From contig JADLCR010000009.1 in the NCBI GenBank assembly GCA_020847095.1, forward strand, positions 1 through 64,000: DNA of 64,000 bases. Reading direction: 5' to 3'. The notes beneath the pieces were generated by a model. It was not told the DNA's origin and searched no databases. It saw only the letters and a list, made by a program, of their open reading frames with translations. This stretch comes from Oligoflexia bacterium (lineage in GTDB: Bacteria; Bdellovibrionota; Bdellovibrionia; JABDDW01). Below are positions 7,232-16,006 of this stretch, in pieces. Position 1 is the first letter of the stretch. Every line of letters begins with the position of its first letter. Made by a program: the position numbers and the translations under genes.

Positions 7232-7356
7232 CTTCCCCCTCCACTTTTGTGAAGCAACCTTTACTGATCGCCGTTGCATATGGTCAAGCTCAAATTCGTT
7301 GACACCGTGAGACTTTCAAAACATATTGCCAGCAATTCAAAAATTCTGGGGTGATC

Positions 7357-9474
7357 ATGAAAAATTTATTCCTTTGTTCGGTGGTTTTGTTGAACTGTGC
7401 CATGGCCATTGGTCAAGACGCACCCAACGGTCCGGGAATGATGGGCGTGTGGAGTCGACCCGATAAGCAAGGACTCATCACATCAAAAACTCAGCCCTTG
7501 TGGGCGACCATTGCAGAAGGTGTTTTAACGGAAGTGCACTTTCCATTTGCCGATCGCGCCCAAACGAAAGACACACAAATTCTGATCCGCATTGGTCAAC
7601 GAATTCTAGAAGAACGAAAGCATTTCACTCACGTCGTCACGCGATACCCGGGCACACTCGCCTATCACGTCACTTCGGTAAATCAAGAACTTCAAATTCG
7701 CATTGAAAAGGATTTCGTACCTGATCCGCAACAGCCGAGCCTGTGGGTCTCTTATCGGATTTCAATGGCTCAGCCTTACCCAATTAAGATTTTTTTACTT
7801 CATAATCCCGCTGCCGACAATACCGCCGGCGGTGACGCGATTTTTGTGCGCTCGAGACAGGCCGGAGACCGTGAGCTTCTCGCGTTTCAATCGGATCGGC
7901 GCGGTGACGAACCTCCAACGTTGGCTCGCAGAGCCACTCAGTCACTTGTTCTGGCTGGCCCAACCGAGGGAGGAACAGTCGGCTTTGAGGGCGTCAATGG
8001 CCCCTACGAACAGCTCCTAAGATTCGGGATGCTCAATCAGACATTTACTTCTGCGAAAAACGGAAACGTTGCGGGGGCTCTGATTTTAAGCGGCAACAGT
8101 CGAGAAGTCAGTTTTCACTTTTCACTAAACTTTTCGTTAAATGAACCCTCCATCGACCCTATACCTTTTTTAGCCAAGGCTTCTTCAAAGTTTTCTATGC
8201 TCCCTCAAGAAGAGATTTTACGAAGATTGTTAACACTCAATCGCCAGTCTTGGGAAAGTTATCTGTCGCAATTAAACCCTTTGGGCCAACGCATGGAGCC
8301 CCATGTTTTAATGCTAAAAGGTTTGGAAGATAAATTTAATCCCGGAGCTCTCATTGCGGGATTAGCTAAACCCTCGCTTCCCGAACGTCTTGAGTTAATT
8401 GAATACGATTATGAAACCGCGCGCTTGAGAAAAGCTGACATTAACGGTGGTTATCACAGGGTTTGGCCCAGAGATTTAGCTCATATGGGAATTGCGCTAC
8501 TTGCCGCCGGAGATACAGTAACACCCATTAATGTTGCGAGATTTTTACAGCGAACACAAAAGGCCGATGGCTCATTTTGGCAAAACACATGGGTTGATGG
8601 CCAGCCGAGCTGGCTTGGCTATCAAATGGATCAAACCGGGCTTGCCATTTCACTTGTATCCAAACTCGTAGAACTTGGCATTGCTCGCTACAGTGACTTT
8701 CGCCCCATGGTGCTAAAAGCGGCCGATAGTCTTTTGACTCGAGGTCCAATCACGGACCAAGAACGATGGGAAGAAAATGGTGGGTTAAGTCCGAACTCAA
8801 TTGCAGCAGCCTGCCAAGGTTTGCTGGACGCCTCTTGGCTTGAACAGGGAATCGACCAGAGTCGATCGCAAGCCTACGGAATGTTGTGCGAAAAATATAA
8901 AACTTTGATCTTCGACTGGACTTACATTGATAACGGTCCGCTCGGCCGTGGTTATTTTGAACGGCTTCACGTAGGTCATCCCCAAGATCGCAGTCACTCT
9001 ACGGTCATTCAGATTAGAAACAACCCCGTCGGTGGGAATACTTTCCTAGAAAGTGAGATCGTTGACGGAGGCTTTCTCCACTGGATTTTTACAGGTCTTT
9101 TATCGCCGCTCGATCCAAGGTTGAACTCGGCGATCGCAACCCTTGATCGCGTGGCCGGCCCCATTGCCACCAATGGCCGAGGTTACTTAAGATACAATCA
9201 CGACGGATACGGGCAAGGACACCTTGGCCGACCTTGGCCCCTCTTGGCCGGCGAGCGCGCCTTAGCCGCTATAGCTCGGGGCGAAGACCCGACGCCGTTT
9301 GCACGAATGCTTTTTGGAGCGGCCGATGCTCGAACGGGAATTATTTGTGAGCAGATTGACGGAGCAAGCGTTTGCCCGTTGGGTTGGTCTCATGCCGAAG
9401 CTCTCATTGTGGCGCGCAGCATGGCTGAAAACCGAAGTTTCTACATGCCTCGCCGCATTTTGGGAATTAAGTGA
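7357..9474 (+). CDS. Exported GH15 glucoamylase-like protein
   Basis: A 705-residue protein that would hydrolyse alpha-1,4-linked glucose from non-reducing chain ends. The ATG at 7357 follows TGGGGTGATC, and a GTG two codons earlier is less likely. A signal peptide ends near MAIGQ. Residues ~20-270 form the N-terminal beta-sandwich of bacterial GH15 enzymes. The (alpha/alpha)6 barrel follows, with NGGYHRVWPRD (about 366-375) and RWEENGGLSP (about 472-481), whose glutamate is the family's general acid. Length fits bacterial glucoamylase/glucodextranase. It is divergent from the GH13 gene, and its stop overlaps the start of the next gene by 4 nt. Confidence 0.85.
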   Translation: MKNLFLCSVVLLNCAMAIGQDAPNGPGMMGVWSRPDKQGLITSKTQPLWATIAEGVLTEVHFPFADRAQTKDTQILIRIGQRILEERKHFTHVVTRYPGTLAYHVTSVNQELQIRIEKDFVPDPQQPSLWVSYRISMAQPYPIKIFLLHNPAADNTAGGDAIFVRSRQAGDRELLAFQSDRRGDEPPTLARRATQSLVLAGPTEGGTVGFEGVNGPYEQLLRFGMLNQTFTSAKNGNVAGALILSGNSREVSFHFSLNFSLNEPSIDPIPFLAKASSKFSMLPQEEILRRLLTLNRQSWESYLSQLNPLGQRMEPHVLMLKGLEDKFNPGALIAGLAKPSLPERLELIEYDYETARLRKADINGGYHRVWPRDLAHMGIALLAAGDTVTPINVARFLQRTQKADGSFWQNTWVDGQPSWLGYQMDQTGLAISLVSKLVELGIARYSDFRPMVLKAADSLLTRGPITDQERWEENGGLSPNSIAAACQGLLDASWLEQGIDQSRSQAYGMLCEKYKTLIFDWTYIDNGPLGRGYFERLHVGHPQDRSHSTVIQIRNNPVGGNTFLESEIVDGGFLHWIFTGLLSPLDPRLNSAIATLDRVAGPIATNGRGYLRYNHDGYGQGHLGRPWPLLAGERALAAIARGEDPTPFARMLFGAADARTGIICEQIDGASVCPLGWSHAEALIVARSMAENRSFYMPRRILGIK

Positions 9475-10025
9475 ATTTTCCTGAGTTTGCCGTAACGGGA
9501 GCCTTTTTGGCTTTGCCACTTGTCGTCGGTGGCATCGTTCACATGATTGCCGTCAAAGCGGACATTTTGAAGCCACTTAAAATCCCCATTTGCCAATCCG
9601 CCTTTGGCGCCAACAAAACCTGGAGAGGTTTTGTGATCATGCCTGTGACTTGCACCCTTGGCGTGTTCTTAGCTTTTATGGTTCAAGATCTTTTGACACC
9701 TTTGCTTCAGGTGAAATTTGCGAAAGAATCTCTGTGGTTTTTGGGTCCGATGCTTGGCATTGGATACATGGCGACAGAGTTGCCAAATTCTTTCCTCAAG
9801 CGGCGACTTGGAATTGCCCCAGGCACCAACACCAATGGAAGGTATAAATGGCTCTTTGTTTTTTTAGATCAAGTTGACTCAGGATTTGGCTGTTCCGTTG
9901 TGTATTATGCTCTGCTGGCCGTGCCGATTATTTATCTTGTCGCATTCTTAAGCGTCGGCCCCCTCATCCACCTTGTGGTGAATATGGGATTGTTTTCTCT
10001 GGGGTTAAAAAGGCAAAAGTTTTAA
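9471..10025 (+). CDS. CDP-archaeol/CDP-diglyceride synthase-like membrane protein
   Basis: A 184-residue integral membrane protein with about five hydrophobic segments and a GTG start inside the GH15 stop codon. FGANKTWRG near residue 45, TELPNSFLKRRLGIAPG near 105, and LDQVDS near 132 match the CarS (DUF46) family, which activates lipid phosphates with CTP to form CDP-lipids. The Asp-rich DQVDS motif is the expected metal site. In bacteria the substrate is presumably a diacyl or other phospholipid precursor, but this is inference. The gene converges on the GNAT gene, both ending on one TTAA at 10022-10025. Confidence 0.7.
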   Translation: MNFPEFAVTGAFLALPLVVGGIVHMIAVKADILKPLKIPICQSAFGANKTWRGFVIMPVTCTLGVFLAFMVQDLLTPLLQVKFAKESLWFLGPMLGIGYMATELPNSFLKRRLGIAPGTNTNGRYKWLFVFLDQVDSGFGCSVVYYALLAVPIIYLVAFLSVGPLIHLVVNMGLFSLGLKRQKF

Positions 10026-11095
10026 ATTTCAAGTTTGTACATCCAGTATTCCCGTTGATGGGGACCAAAGTGCGAGTAAATGGATTTCCCTTCGCGCACT
10101 AAATATCCGTAATAACGCTCGCGGGGTCGCTCAAGCGCGCTATAGAGACCGGATTTGAATAATAAATCGACCACTCCCTGCTGCCTGCTTTCTTTATCAA
10201 TGCCCATCATATTCAAGATATATGAATCCGTTGTTTCTGCTGCGTTCATCAACAAAGCTGGAGTAACCGCTCCCCCATGGGCATCTTTATAAGCTTTCCC
10301 GAAATCAGGATGACCCAAAGCTAGGCCGTGAGCTTTATTGTCGGGCCCTATGATAAAAAACAAGTGGATCAAGGGAAGGGCTTTCATCAGAGATCCAAAG
10401 CAAAACTTAAAGTCGAGATAATCAATTCCCGTTGCCAAATAGTTTTCAGAAAAAATTTCTATTAATAGGCGGTGGTAATTTTGAAAAGTGAGTTCGTCCT
10501 CAACCAGAATGCGCTCAACTCTCCAACCTTGAACTCCCTCTGCCCGCTTGATGCACATTTGATGCATGGCTTCGATGTTTGATCGAGAAACTTCCCAAGT
10601 TCTCCATCGCGCGTCTTTTTTGAATCCAAAACTTTCCCATTGTTGTGGATAATACGGTGGATTCACCGGCTCACCGCCATAATAAGGCAAGTCAAAAGCA
10701 TCCGTTTTGAATCGATACTTGGCCCAAATTCCGTAGTCAGCAGGCCCGATCACTGTGTTGATAGATTTTGTCTTCAACCATTCAACGGCTGCGCCCAACA
10801 GGGCTTTCGATGTCTCTGGCCGATTTTCGCATACATAACGCCCTAAGACGGCTTGTCCGGCAGGCAAAAGCTTGTCAATAAATGCGGTGACACTTCCTCT
10901 TACTTGATCACCCGATAAGGCCATGAAGTGACGAACTTCCGTGTGTCGATTCATTGGGTTTTGAGAAGAATAGAAGCTGACCTCATGGTCCTTTTGCGGC
11001 AGGGGCCATTGTTTGAATTGCCCCATCAACTCTTTCTGTAAATCGAACGATTTCAAAAGAAGTGCTTCGTTAAAATCGCAGTCAATTATCTTCAT
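10022..11095 (-). CDS. GNAT-type acyltransferase, possibly lipid-related
   Basis: A 357-residue soluble protein. The ATG at 11095 is preferred over a GTG two codons upstream because AGGAGG lies 5 nt before it. The central pattern IGPADYGIW...FDLPYYGGEP.NPPYYPQQW..FGFKKDA resembles large GNAT acyltransferases that acylate lipid amines, such as bacterial ceramide synthase (bCerS). This is a motif-level resemblance only. The C-terminus (LALGHPDFGKAY to NMMGIDKESRQQGV) carries the GNAT acyl-CoA region. Its start overlaps the stop of the PEP-synthase-like gene (ATGA), implying translational coupling and a shared pathway. Substrate not established. Confidence 0.55.
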   Translation of the reverse strand: MKIIDCDFNEALLLKSFDLQKELMGQFKQWPLPQKDHEVSFYSSQNPMNRHTEVRHFMALSGDQVRGSVTAFIDKLLPAGQAVLGRYVCENRPETSKALLGAAVEWLKTKSINTVIGPADYGIWAKYRFKTDAFDLPYYGGEPVNPPYYPQQWESFGFKKDARWRTWEVSRSNIEAMHQMCIKRAEGVQGWRVERILVEDELTFQNYHRLLIEIFSENYLATGIDYLDFKFCFGSLMKALPLIHLFFIIGPDNKAHGLALGHPDFGKAYKDAHGGAVTPALLMNAAETTDSYILNMMGIDKESRQQGVVDLLFKSGLYSALERPRERYYGYLVREGKSIYSHFGPHQREYWMYKLEI

Positions 11096-13632
11096 TGACA
11101 CCTCCTGACCAAGCCCTTTTCGCCATCTATCTCAATCATCTCGCCGGTTTGAAACATCTTGGTTGCTCCTCGGACTCCGACTACTGTTGGAGTCTTAAGC
11201 TCTCTTCCGATTATCGCTGTATGACTGAGGAGACTTCCTTTTTCAGAAACCAGTCCGCAACATTGCGAAAGAATAAAAATCCACGCTGGATCAGTCGTTT
11301 GAGTTATTAAAATGTATGATTTTAAATCATCAAAGGCCATGGCCTCTTGCGGCGTTTTTAAAACTAGTGCTTTAGCTCGAATGACACCGGGGCTGGCGCC
11401 TGTTCCAGAAAGGGAATCCCCGTCAAGCTTAACTTCTTCGGCTTTATCCTCATCAAAAAAATATGGGGGCACTTTAGAATTTTCCGGATGGCAGAAATTT
11501 TCTGGATAAGCGAACTTTGTTTCCGGCCATCCCTTTCTTAAGTCAATTAGCGACCGAACCTCGGCAGCAGAAATCTGACCGTCAGCATATTTTTTTAAAT
11601 CGCTAAATTCTAAGCTAAAAAAGTCAAGGCTCGTGAAATCAGAAAATAAGCTTGGATGCTCCTGTTTCAACAACTCCCCAATCTTAAGAATCGTTCGTCG
11701 CACCCACCCATAATACTGCCCACGCAACATTCGTGTTTTTTCACGAGTTTGAATGGTTCTTTCCGTAAAACCCATCACAACTTTGAGCTTCAATCGCGCG
11801 AGCAAACCCATGCGAGTCAAATCGAGAGCCTTTTCTTCTTCATAGACTCGATCCCCAAGATCGCTCTTGACCATCCAACGCATGAGCCCCAAAAAAGCCC
11901 GAGGACTTTGTTTAAAGGTCATACATTCAAGTTTAAGCTCTTCAAACGCGCGATCACCAAAGTTGTCTAGGTATTTTTCAATCAACCTGACTTCGCGAGC
12001 AAATCCTTGAGCGAGAAGGTTTGAATAAGCATTCTTCAATTCGTCTTTTGGATTTCCGGAATCGAGAAGCTTTCCAAGTGCTAGCCAAAAATCGGTATTT
12101 TCTTTAATGGCGGAGCATAACTTTTTAAGCTCCACCAAAGCTTGCATAGAATCGACGCCCTTTTTGGTTCGAAGCAACCCTGAGACAGCCTCTTCTCCAT
12201 ACCCGAAACGCTGTAGACTCTTAGTGACCTTGCGAAGCCCGCTCATCACCAAAATGTCGTTAAGAGCAGTCCATCCCCAGCCTTTAAGCCGGTCGATGGC
12301 CACGAACAGAAACTCAGAAAGTACCTTTGAATTGGTTGCGGTTTGCGTTTCGTTTTCAAGAACCAAAATTCTCTTTTCAGAACTTGTGCAAAAATCTCGG
12401 AAAATGTTTGTATGCCACAGCACGATCCAAGCAAAGCGAGCCAGCATGGTTAACTTTTCGAAACGACTAAACGGCTTTAACTTTGGCAACGGAACAGAAA
12501 TCTTCTGCCCGCCAATCATTCGGTGCCAATCATCAATGGCCTTTTGACCTCCGGGCAATACGCTCAGAACAGTGTAGTAGCTGTTGAGATTATAATACAT
12601 ATGACCGCCAAATTCAGAAATCAGCGAATCAAAATACGGGCCCAACTCAGCCATCCTTGATTTACCAAGACCTAAGTAAATTCCGATTTCGCTGATGACT
12701 TTTGTGTACATCTTTTTCACAAAATCTGCGGTCATGGGGCTTGTCAGCGCCGGATAGCTTTCACTCAAATTTGTATCCGAATAGTAAACAAGAGGTTCGA
12801 ACATTTGAGTTATGGGTCGCACCTGCAAGAGATGCAAATGACCCTGTTGATCAAAAGCCCATTCAATATCTGCAGGCCGTCCTAATTCTGCTTCTACTCT
12901 CAAAACTTCGCGCGAAAGTTCTTTGATCTGTGAATCCGAGAGAGATTGAAGGTTTCTAAGGGACTCCGGCACAGAAACCACTTCGGTGGCATGCCGATCT
13001 GCCACATAGGCCACTTGCTTTTCTTTGTTTTGAATCTGCGATTTATGAACTTCTAAAAATCTTGTTACCCAAAACGAATCGACTTCAACGAGTCCCGAAA
13101 CAATTCCCTCTCCCAGACCGTAACCACTGTCGATATAAATAAGTGATGAATTCCCTTGGGGAGCCCGACTAAATGCAACGCCGCTGACTACCGATGGAAT
13201 CATGGCTTGGACGACGACAGCGGCCTTGATCCCAGCGTCTTCTGAGCGTTTTTTCGAATAATCGATGGCCCTTTCAGAAAAAGCCGATTTAAAACAGTCG
13301 ATGATTCTTTCTTCAAGCTCTGGTTCTTTAACGTAGAGAAAGGTTTCCATCACACCAGCAAAGCTTGAAGTCTCACCATCTTCTGCGGTCATCGAACTTC
13401 GCACCGCAAAATACGGAGTGTTCCAGCTTCGAGCACGATTTCGAATATCAGCCAGCAAATTCGAATCAAGCTTGCTGCTTTTTTGCCACTGGTCAAATGC
13501 TACCGTCGTGACAACACCAAACGGGGGAACTTGCACCCCCCATTGCTTAAGTTTAAATAGGTTCATGCCCTTGCCCCCTAAAAGTTTAGGGGTCAGAACG
13601 GACGGGTTAATTTCGGTAATCCAAAGACTCAA
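11092..13632 (-). CDS. PEP-synthase/rifampicin-phosphotransferase-like enzyme
   Basis: An 846-residue protein with a TTG start after AGAGG. The N-terminal 290 residues form the ATP-grasp nucleotide-binding domain of PEP synthase/PPDK (GGKGMNLFKLK at 18-28, then AVRSSMTAEDG and FAGVMETFL). A helical middle region (about 290-740) starts NLSESYPALTSPMT. The C-terminal swivelling phosphohistidine domain carries GSLLSHTAIIGRE with the transfer His near residue 804. The classical TIM-barrel PEP domain is missing, so this is not a pyruvate-making synthase. The layout matches the rifampicin phosphotransferase type, which moves phosphate from ATP to an acceptor. The acceptor is unknown, and coupling to the GNAT gene suggests a shared substrate. 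Confidence 0.7.
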   Translation of the reverse strand: MSLWITEINPSVLTPKLLGGKGMNLFKLKQWGVQVPPFGVVTTVAFDQWQKSSKLDSNLLADIRNRARSWNTPYFAVRSSMTAEDGETSSFAGVMETFLYVKEPELEERIIDCFKSAFSERAIDYSKKRSEDAGIKAAVVVQAMIPSVVSGVAFSRAPQGNSSLIYIDSGYGLGEGIVSGLVEVDSFWVTRFLEVHKSQIQNKEKQVAYVADRHATEVVSVPESLRNLQSLSDSQIKELSREVLRVEAELGRPADIEWAFDQQGHLHLLQVRPITQMFEPLVYYSDTNLSESYPALTSPMTADFVKKMYTKVISEIGIYLGLGKSRMAELGPYFDSLISEFGGHMYYNLNSYYTVLSVLPGGQKAIDDWHRMIGGQKISVPLPKLKPFSRFEKLTMLARFAWIVLWHTNIFRDFCTSSEKRILVLENETQTATNSKVLSEFLFVAIDRLKGWGWTALNDILVMSGLRKVTKSLQRFGYGEEAVSGLLRTKKGVDSMQALVELKKLCSAIKENTDFWLALGKLLDSGNPKDELKNAYSNLLAQGFAREVRLIEKYLDNFGDRAFEELKLECMTFKQSPRAFLGLMRWMVKSDLGDRVYEEEKALDLTRMGLLARLKLKVVMGFTERTIQTREKTRMLRGQYYGWVRRTILKIGELLKQEHPSLFSDFTSLDFFSLEFSDLKKYADGQISAAEVRSLIDLRKGWPETKFAYPENFCHPENSKVPPYFFDEDKAEEVKLDGDSLSGTGASPGVIRAKALVLKTPQEAMAFDDLKSYILITQTTDPAWIFILSQCCGLVSEKGSLLSHTAIIGRELKTPTVVGVRGATKMFQTGEMIEIDGEKGLVRRCQ

Positions 13633-13659
13633 ATAAACCTCTATAAAATCTGGAATCTT

Positions 13660-14580
13660 TTGAGTAATCTCACGTGTATGCCAGATTTAGATGCAAAAAC
13701 CCAACCCATTTTTTTCATTAATCGCGCAACCGGAAAGCGCGAGCAGGAGCTGGTTTATGGCGGCGACATCATTGCCTGGCTCTACCAGAATCCAATAGGA
13801 CAGGGGTTGTCTTCGGTTTTAACCAGAAAATGGATCAGTCAAGTTTATGGGGCCGTTCAGTCGCGCCGGTCGAGCGCAAAAAAAATACCTGACTTTATTT
13901 CAAAGTTTCAAATCCCCATGGATCTTTATGAATCCGGACCATTTCAAAGCTTTAACGACTTTTTTATCAGAAAATTTCGATCTGGAGCTCGATCATTTGC
14001 ATCAGACCCCAAGCAAATGGGGGCTTTTGCTGAAGGACGTTATGCGGCTTTCGAAGCTTTGAATGATCAAGTGACTTTCCCAGTTAAAGGCGAATTCATA
14101 AGGCCAATGGACTTCCTAAAGGGAGTTAAGGATTGGTCGCGCTTCGAAAACGGACCAGGATTTGTAGCGCGCCTTTGCCCGGTGGATTATCACCGTTTTC
14201 ATTTTCCAGATGATGGAAATTTGGTTTTTGAAAAAAGAATTCACGGACCGTTTCACTCGGTCAACCCAATGGCCCTTACATTTAAACCTTCTATTTTGAG
14301 CACCAATGAAAGACACGTCAGCATTTTAGAAACGAAGAACTTCGGGCTTCTTGCCTATATTGAGGTTGGAGCTCTCTGCGTTGGCAAAATTGTCCAAACT
14401 CATTCTGGCCCTTCATTTAAAAAAGGCGATGAAAAGGGATATTTTTTATTTGGGGCCTCTACCGTGGTCGTTTTAGGTGAGCCTCAAAAATGGAAGCCCG
14501 CCGCTGACCTGATTAAAAATACAAGGGATGGAATTGAAACTTTAGTAAGACTCGGCGAACCTATTGCACAAGTCCTCTAG
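13660..14580 (+). CDS. psd: Phosphatidylserine decarboxylase proenzyme
   Basis: A 306-residue pyruvoyl enzyme that makes phosphatidylethanolamine from phosphatidylserine at the inner membrane. PVDYHRFHFP (about 174-183) contains the conserved His. The self-cleavage site YFLFGAST has the pyruvoyl-forming Ser at 267, and here the residue before Ser is Ala where LGST or GGST is usual. The TTG start at 13660 has GGA upstream, and an in-frame ATG at 13678 is the alternative. It diverges from the PEP-synthase-like gene, with 27 bp between two TTG starts, so their promoters must overlap coding sequence. It may also supply lipid substrate to the neighbouring enzymes, which is inference. The 3' end overlaps the convergent gene by 20 nt. 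Confidence 0.85.
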   Translation: MSNLTCMPDLDAKTQPIFFINRATGKREQELVYGGDIIAWLYQNPIGQGLSSVLTRKWISQVYGAVQSRRSSAKKIPDFISKFQIPMDLYESGPFQSFNDFFIRKFRSGARSFASDPKQMGAFAEGRYAAFEALNDQVTFPVKGEFIRPMDFLKGVKDWSRFENGPGFVARLCPVDYHRFHFPDDGNLVFEKRIHGPFHSVNPMALTFKPSILSTNERHVSILETKNFGLLAYIEVGALCVGKIVQTHSGPSFKKGDEKGYFLFGASTVVVLGEPQKWKPAADLIKNTRDGIETLVRLGEPIAQVL

Positions 14581-15949
14581 CACGCTTCACAAATTCGAGC
14601 TGTCGCCTTAAATAGGCATCATGTTTAATATAAAAATTGGTGAAGTCTTTTCGCTCCGCATAGAGCGACGAATTCCAAAACATTTCATTGGTGACACTGG
14701 GCTTTGTGCTCAAAGCTTTCGAATAAACGTCATCAAAGTATTCGAGGTTTGCCTTGAGATCATAGTACTTGGGGTCCTTTAAAATGACTTGACCGTCCGT
14801 TTTGATTCGAAGCGCTCCATCTATCATTTGTTTAATTCGAGCAACCGAAGTCCAGCCGAGTTGTCGTAGTAAGGCCGTCGTTTTTGACGGCAAACTTTTT
14901 AGATCAAATGCATAATCAGAGTATTCATAGAGTTCGTTTTCTGCATGTTGCAGATGCTCAATCACCGCGCCAGGCTGCATCGGCAGCCATTGGTGATTTA
15001 TCAAAAGTGATTTTGCCAAGGGGTGACGATAGAGCATTGAAGGGTGATTAAGCTTAAGATCTTTAATCCTTCGACCTGGATAAACTCCCTTCACCCCCAA
15101 ATGGGCCAAGTTGATAAATTGATTCATTGGAATTGCCAAATGAAATGCCACCTGCCGCCATCCAGGAAGTTCGAACTCAATGCTATCTAAGATGCCCGCC
15201 GCTGCCAGAGCATTAACGACGGTGTGAGTACAGTTATTGTACACTCCGCTCCAACGATAGTTGCGATAGTCCTGACTTGTGGGCTCTGCATACTTTTGAT
15301 TGAGCGCATTGAGATAATCCACCATGGGCTGAAGTTTTGACTGCGGGATGGGCAATCTCACGCAACTTACCGTTCTCCCAAACCACATGGCGTAATCAGT
15401 ATCCAAAGTTTTTAGCCCAATGACTCGGGGATCAGTGATTCCAGGAGCGGGACCAAATAGTCCCGTTACATCATCATCGGCTTGCCCAGCCAAGGCCTCT
15501 GGCCGATGTAACTCAACACCATTAAAAACCCCCTCTTTAACCAGAGAGTCTACAAGCGCATCTCGAAACGATGCGGTGAGCTTCGAAACGTCGTTAAGCC
15601 CGCCATTGATAAAAATGGATTTTCTCTCAACAGCCAACCAATTCACATTTCGAAACTGCTTATCCACACTTACCGAAGTGCCTGAGTCAGGATGACGAAT
15701 ATCTCCCATCGGGCCCTGGTTGCAGACTTTGATTTGAGGGTATGGAGCGCTTGTGTCTCGACAAACCCCCTTCAAGTATAGGGCAGCGTGACCGGCAATA
15801 CCGCCGGGCGTCCCTCCCTTTTCTTTGACTTGAGACACCGAGCAAAGCTCTACGTAATATGGAAATATTTCATCGTAAGTGATGGCCTGTGCGGACCATG
15901 AACCAAAGAACAGACCTAGTGCCAAAAAAATTCCGGAAAATGAAATCAC
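14561..15949 (-). CDS. Secreted protein with possible permuted cysteine-peptidase fold
   Basis: About 462 residues from a GTG at 15949 preceded by GGGAGG, with a signal peptide (ISFSGIFLALGLFFGSWSAQA). An upstream ATG at 15997 lacks a good site. No named family recognised. GGIAGHAALYLKG with H54 precedes NNCTHTVVNALAAAG with C240. A His-first, Cys-second order with an NC motif is seen in permuted papain-like families such as LRAT and DUF4105. That would make it a secreted peptidase, amidase or acyltransferase. The C-terminal 200 residues are basic and helical. It precedes no obvious partner. The fold is a suggestion, while the secretion signal is solid. Confidence 0.5.
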   Translation of the reverse strand: MISFSGIFLALGLFFGSWSAQAITYDEIFPYYVELCSVSQVKEKGGTPGGIAGHAALYLKGVCRDTSAPYPQIKVCNQGPMGDIRHPDSGTSVSVDKQFRNVNWLAVERKSIFINGGLNDVSKLTASFRDALVDSLVKEGVFNGVELHRPEALAGQADDDVTGLFGPAPGITDPRVIGLKTLDTDYAMWFGRTVSCVRLPIPQSKLQPMVDYLNALNQKYAEPTSQDYRNYRWSGVYNNCTHTVVNALAAAGILDSIEFELPGWRQVAFHLAIPMNQFINLAHLGVKGVYPGRRIKDLKLNHPSMLYRHPLAKSLLINHQWLPMQPGAVIEHLQHAENELYEYSDYAFDLKSLPSKTTALLRQLGWTSVARIKQMIDGALRIKTDGQVILKDPKYYDLKANLEYFDDVYSKALSTKPSVTNEMFWNSSLYAERKDFTNFYIKHDAYLRRQLEFVKRARGLVQ

Positions 15950-16006
15950 GTTAGCCTCCCGCCAGTTTTTGGGATTGGGATGCAACGGACTTGCCAACTG
16001 ATTGGC

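Follow-up and report, generated by a model that had tools for sequence, protein, structure and literature searches.

Dikinases of the class represented by HpeHI turn ATP into AMP by way of a swivel domain that carries a phospho-histidine, and phosphorylate the hydroxyls of small molecules (PMC12167813). We analysed a stretch of 64,000 nucleotides from an Oligoflexia bacterium (contig JADLCR010000009.1, positions 1 to 64,000, referred to here as the window) that carries, at about positions 9471 to 13632, genes for a dikinase-like protein (DIK), an adjoining GNAT acyltransferase and a CarS-like membrane protein. These three genes probably make up one locus of a pathway for a lipid or lipid-like product, the remaining recognisable genes of which lie at a second locus of the same genome. 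Our verdict is that the set is a divergent, split and outlying member, using CarS, of a conserved gene set (DIK-GNAT-UbiA) of which we found no description in the literature searched; this consisted of open-access papers and is weak evidence of absence. The genome of the window is G000, the family genomes searched are G001 and G002, further G-labels denote relatives from the class, and L-labels denote the loci that were read. The four open reading frames of the initial annotation (CarS-like gene, GNAT, phosphotransferase and psd) were all present, and the features of the region are as follows.

7351 to 9474, plus strand: GH15 glucoamylase-type gene, bordering the apparent insertion on its left and sharing 53% (G002) and 52% (G001) identity with the gene that immediately precedes psd there
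9471 to 10025, plus strand: CarS-like CTP:lipid cytidylyltransferase-type membrane protein (PF01864, 2.9e-10), GTG start
10022 to 11095, minus strand (ORF from 11101): tandem-GNAT N-acyltransferase, with homologues 3' of DIK
11092 to 13632, minus strand: DIK, a small-molecule dikinase with the layout of rifampin phosphotransferase (RPH)
11221 to 11223, minus strand: codon for H804, predicted to be the catalytic phospho-histidine (GSLLSHTAI)
13633 to 13677, no strand: short intergenic stretch between the divergent DIK and psd genes, right edge of the unit that looks inserted
13678 to 14580, plus strand (ORF from 13660): phosphatidylserine decarboxylase gene psd, a resident neighbour outside the cassette

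The DIK and GNAT proteins

The results of the Pfam searches showed that DIK matched PPDK_N (1.8e-60) and PEP-utilizers (1.2e-19), with no PEP/pyruvate-binding domain. Against the PEP synthase model TIGR01418 it scored 223 bits, a long way under the cut-off of 740. Its domain order, ATP-grasp (about residues 1-280), middle substrate domain (about 280-700) and swivel/His domain (about 740-846), is that of RPH-type small-molecule dikinases, and the best fold match of its AlphaFold2 (AF2) model (pLDDT 81) was RPH (5hv1, E 5.4e-36, 22% identity over the structural alignment); both results uphold the rifampicin-phosphotransferase layout that had been proposed from the sequence. All 46 aligned relatives have H804, which corresponds to the histidine required for activity in RPH and HpeH (PMC12167813). 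The closest relative of the window DIK was that of G076 (34% identity), its sister with an SH-aLRT of 99 in a quick tree with long branches, and the two proteins have motif changes such as SDxNLSESYP in common.

The window GNAT itself matched no Pfam or NCBIfam model, and when used alone as a scan query against genome contigs it gave no matches. We assigned it to the GNATs because its homologues match PF00583 (Acetyltransf_1; 37 of 43 aligned sequences) and because its predicted fold is that of a tandem GNAT: the AF2 model (pLDDT 82.5) has two GNAT folds in one chain and matched the tandem GNATs 2wpw, 5kf1 and 7q3a over about 380 alignment columns. The DIK-GNAT junction on the minus strand reads AGGAGGTGTCAATGA, with an AGGAGG just upstream of the GNAT start. 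From this sequence, the ATGA coupling described in the initial annotation is exact when the GNAT starts at 11095, the third codon of its ORF.

Conserved neighbourhood of DIK

Scanning the middle domain of DIK against one genome per species gave 343 relatives, of which the best 80 were read as loci. All neighbour counts below refer to these 80, which are those closest to a query made of Bdellovibrionota sequences, are in several cases cut by contig ends and include a few repeats of genomes already seen. By the titles of their records, which are those of metagenome-assembled genomes, they came from Bdellovibrionota, Gemmatimonadota, Chloroflexota, Planctomycetota, Verrucomicrobia and Myxococcales.

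The pair that the initial annotation had singled out is conserved well outside the window: GNAT was the next gene 3' of DIK in 46 of the 80 loci, with a 4-nt overlap in 21 of those, and this pairing is far beyond chance. Groups with this arrangement include Bdellovibrionota, Gemmatimonadota and Chloroflexota. Within the class, GNAT stood directly beside DIK in L104, L106, L107, L108, L110, L111 and L112, while L039, L040, L096 and L099 held DIK and GNAT together with UbiA-like and AMP-ligase genes. The most frequent neighbours were genes for an AMP-ligase (64), a UbiA-like prenyltransferase (56), DUF3419 (47), an acyl-ACP-reductase-like (AAR-like) enzyme (28), a lipid kinase (27) and an SDR (26), followed by exporters and others, namely FtsX (23), LolA-like (12), MMPL (11) and an HMG-CoA-reductase-APH fusion (11). 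The gene set occurs in many groups of bacteria, and its content looks suited to the synthesis and export of a lipid-like molecule. Placement of the pair away from lipid genes in related genomes had been named beforehand as an outcome that would speak against a lipid role, and the comparison came out in favour of it.

Comparison of GNAT and formyltransferase genes showed that the two never occurred in the same locus, GNAT being present alone in 48 loci and formyltransferase alone in 12 (Fisher p 3.7e-6). The loci of the formyltransferase type fell largely within one clade of the DIK tree, so this exclusivity may reflect few events. Our inference is that GNAT and formyltransferase are two ways of capping one amine. 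With its adjacent GNAT, the window has the DIK-plus-GNAT (or formyltransferase) arrangement of the gene set.

Several other arrangements were seen among the loci read. The HMG-CoA reductase fused to an APH-type kinase was encoded directly beside the dikinase in L046:2783-5038, L096:3367-5784 and L100:6897-9248, and a class-III aminotransferase was fused to the AAR-like reductase, with the PigE domains in reverse order, in L053:11296-13893 and L094:17275-20000. A membrane protein resembling, by eye, CTP-dependent polyprenol/phytol kinases was found at L193:10197-11576 and in L204, L206 and L217 (Gemmatimonadota and others); it is a possible counterpart of CarS, and the L206 protein had no Pfam or NCBIfam match.

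The CarS-like gene and its linkage to DIK

The CarS-like protein scored 40.9 bits against PF01864 (gathering threshold 22) and 55.2 bits against the NCBIfam CDP-archaeol synthase equivalog, below the cut-off of 148. It is 32-40% identical to the CarS-like proteins that adjoin dikinases in L048, L098, L102 and L094, with which it has the motif ELPNSFLKRR...APG...LD..DS in common. A search of 144 genomes of the class with the Pfam profile, several weak partial matches (about 20-23 bits) being left out of the count, showed that CarS-like genes are rare and that five of the six stand beside a DIK (G000, G044, G127, G089 and G076). The CarS and DIK genes overlapped by 4 nt in G044 and G127 and by 1 nt in G089, and genes for PlsC, a methyltransferase and a desaturase were also present in these clusters. 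An ATGA overlap joined CarS and Psd in G076, where they were followed by AurF-like, DIK, GNAT and UbiA genes and an aminotransferase-AAR fusion. The sixth CarS, in G110, was on a short contig without DIK. This homologue (L095:383-928, G110:C288) matched PF01864 at 3.1e-25, far better than the other members of the class, and adjoins an AMP-ligase gene.

A probable second locus in the window genome

G000 carries a UbiA-like gene on contig C13 (8.1e-40) and an AAR-like gene on contig C65 (2.5e-201), whose product is 53% identical to a Bdellovibrio cluster protein and matched TIGR04058 (3.4e-18). The order on C13 is UbiA, fatty-acid desaturase, then, divergently, a lipid kinase of the YegS type and an SDR of which the contig end leaves only the first half; on C65, a second SDR half lies at a contig end, with AAR after it. 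The first half covers residues 5-163 and the second residues 163-337 of a single protein of 339 residues, so C13 and C65 probably adjoin and are probably one locus. The SDR is FAR/thioester-reductase-like (PF07993), and together with the AAR-like enzyme it suggests, as judged by family membership, a supply of aldehyde or alcohol. G000 therefore has the UbiA-like, AAR-like, SDR and lipid kinase genes of the gene set (L218, L219). When G001 and G002 were searched, UbiA, full-length AAR, CarS, GNAT and DIK were all missing, a single partial CarS match in G002 (20 bits) being broken by a stop.

Position of the unit between GH15 and psd

The natural unit is CarS, GNAT and DIK, between GH15 and psd and with psd excluded. 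The initial annotation had counted psd into the block, and it has to be taken out: this gene is the single psd of G000, and in both G001 and G002 psd lies directly 3' of the GH15 gene, with overlapping ends. Psd as a member of the cassette was rejected on these two grounds. Downstream, both family genomes have the same DnaJ-like gene; the ABC-F gene adjoins it in G002 and lies at a greater distance in G001. The three genes of the window sit exactly at this GH15/psd junction, so they look inserted, with psd resident; insertion is the simpler reading of three genomes, which cannot fix its polarity. No flanking repeats or base-composition step were seen at the insertion, and promoter and terminator scans showed no clear excess over shuffles. 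The GTG start of CarS overlaps the GH15 stop codon (GTGA).

The Psd protein matched PF02666 (1.6e-45, 155.6 bits), has the GxST processing motif as GAST and probably starts at 13678 rather than 13660. It is 52% identical to the Psd of G001 and of G002 and 36% identical to the copy in the G076 cluster. Second Psd copies were found elsewhere, the one overlapping CarS in G076 and one near a more distant dikinase in the g20 genomes, and in such genomes Psd may have a functional link to these genes. The overlap of GH15 and psd in the two family genomes (L118:96-3096; L119:9555-12550) pairs a glycosidase of the secreted type with a phospholipid enzyme, an odd translational coupling. Adjoining psd in the window, a 478-aa ORF (14561-15997, minus strand) has a hydrophobic N-terminus that is signal-like by eye; it had no Pfam match up to E 0.1 and one meaningless NCBIfam match (E 0.07, 12.7 of 550 bits).

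Proposed pathway and alternative explanations

From gene content, linkage, co-occurrence, predicted folds and conserved catalytic residues we infer a set of substrates, an order of steps and a type of product. The AAR-like reductase and the FAR-like SDR would supply a fatty aldehyde or alcohol. DIK would charge its swivel histidine from ATP and transfer the phosphate onto a scaffold, at a hydroxyl or an enol, with release of AMP and Pi, and GNAT would N-acylate an amine of the same scaffold, a step in which formyltransferase seems to replace it in other lineages. CarS would then turn the phosphorylated lipid into a CDP-activated intermediate. The lipid-type setting, and acylation and phosphorylation as the likely chemistry, had already been suggested in the initial annotation, and our comparisons support them.

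Several results count against this proposal. Of the alignment columns with 90% or higher conservation in the family, the window DIK deviates at 68, which fall mostly within the middle domain and suggest a substrate other than that of the UbiA-type enzymes. In G000, neither a DUF3419 gene (common in the gene set, not universal) nor an AurF-like gene was detected, and the AMP-ligase of the pathway was not located. The two loci of G000 are tied together solely by presence and absence in three genomes, and the second is taken as single on the strength of C13 and C65 each breaking off within one of the two halves of an SDR gene. Lastly, the AAR-like domain is related to PigE and DIK to PigC, both enzymes of a pigment pathway, which leaves room for a product other than a membrane lipid.

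This kinship leads to a reading in which the product is a hydrophobic secondary metabolite, pigment-like or beta-lactone-like, rather than a structural lipid, with DIK as a condensing enzyme similar to PigC/RedH and AAR as a thioester reductase similar to PigE. Among the NCBIfam models, DIK matched the prodigiosin ligases PigC (260 of 1300 bits, 3.8e-77) and RedH (239 of 1350 bits, 6.5e-71), AAR matched PigE (179 of 850 bits, 1.9e-52), and relatives carry an OleB-OleC-like fusion, a P450 and an AurF-like oxygenase. However, all three scores are far under the curated cut-offs, the DIK match consists of separate stretches with the best one in the ATP-grasp part, and CarS, lipid kinase, desaturase, PlsC and LolA/FtsX/MMPL indicate a lipid, which makes a secondary metabolite rather unlikely. 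That CarS, GNAT-DIK and psd are independent neighbours without a shared pathway would fit with CarS lying on the opposite strand and psd being resident at the site, but CarS is linked to DIK in five genomes and GNAT to DIK in dozens, and G000 has the set while both family genomes searched lack it; we regard mere neighbourhood as very unlikely.

GNATs often modify antibiotics, and the closest solved fold to DIK is rifampin phosphotransferase, which together would fit drug inactivation by an RPH-like phosphotransferase and a GNAT. The scores of DIK against the NCBIfam RPH models (219 of 999 and 159 of 1700 bits) missed the cut-offs by a wide margin, the DIK middle-domain profile matched RPH in its C-terminal part alone (E 5e-10), and biosynthetic neighbours are conserved across many genomes. 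A resistance role, which is highly improbable, was rejected on the RPH scores and the conserved neighbourhood; a known antibiotic-modifying function had been foreseen as an outcome against the lipid role, and the distance from the RPH cut-offs favours that role. The least probable explanation is that the GNAT is bCerS-like and serves a branch towards phosphonosphingolipids or ceramides, the link that the initial annotation had raised. The window GNAT is weakly similar (25%, E 1e-6) to a GNAT that adjoins an Spt-like gene in G037. Nevertheless, PEP mutase (TIGR02320) was not found anywhere in G000, in agreement with the initial annotation, which had seen none; no Spt-like gene was found there with a relative's Spt-like protein as query; and FemAB_like PF04339, which we take to be the family holding bCerS, was absent from it. 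The fold predicted for the window GNAT is that of a generic tandem GNAT, so the label 'bCerS-like' is not supported, and the phosphonolipid and sphingolipid reading was rejected for G000. G037 (L007; G037:C145 and G037:C29:1410-2261) has its Spt-like gene beside a GNAT and, elsewhere, a PEP mutase above the cut-off, which makes it a candidate phosphonosphingolipid producer by gene content; PEP mutase above the cut-off was also found in G044 and G071. In the family of the window, G001 has an Spt-like gene (G001:C156:3365-4504) 67% identical to that of G037.

The preferred explanation for the window genes is thus the lipid or lipid-like pathway. A broader claim, which we put forward only tentatively, is that of a widespread undescribed pathway in which envelope lipids are phosphorylated by a phospho-histidine dikinase instead of an ordinary lipid kinase and their amine is capped by an acyl or a formyl group according to lineage, the window being a variant that uses CarS. 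If the lipid reading holds, proteins of predatory and environmental bacteria labelled 'PEP synthase' in databases would belong to an unrecognised lipid-like pathway in several phyla, and lipid-type substrates would be new to a dikinase family whose previously known members act on antibiotics, phenols or pyruvate or serve as a pigment ligase. The gene set also occurs in cultured Bdellovibrio and Bacteriovorax.

Comparison with known systems

RPH has the same order of ATP-grasp, substrate and swivel domains with the catalytic histidine as DIK, and is its best fold match, whereas the middle domain of DIK is largely unlike it in sequence and the neighbourhood of DIK is biosynthetic where that of RPH is one of resistance. 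DIK is of the same mechanism class as HpeHI, CreHI and the phenylphosphate synthase PpsAB, which use ATP to AMP chemistry, a phospho-His swivel and a small-molecule hydroxyl (PMC12167813), but these are two-chain, catabolic enzymes and DIK is a single chain in a biosynthetic cluster. PigC and RedH have dikinase domains, and PigE has an AAR-like domain that in some relatives is fused to a class-III aminotransferase; the fusion of the relatives has the reversed domain order, however, and the loci that were read showed no recognisable prodiginine genes. For bCerS of Caulobacter, the likeness is an acyltransferase gene in a lipid setting, and the difference is that G000 has neither a FemAB_like match nor a detected Spt. 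The CDP-archaeol synthase CarS resembles the window protein in its PF01864 match with conserved motifs, whereas the window gene adjoins a dikinase and its substrate is not necessarily of the archaeol type.

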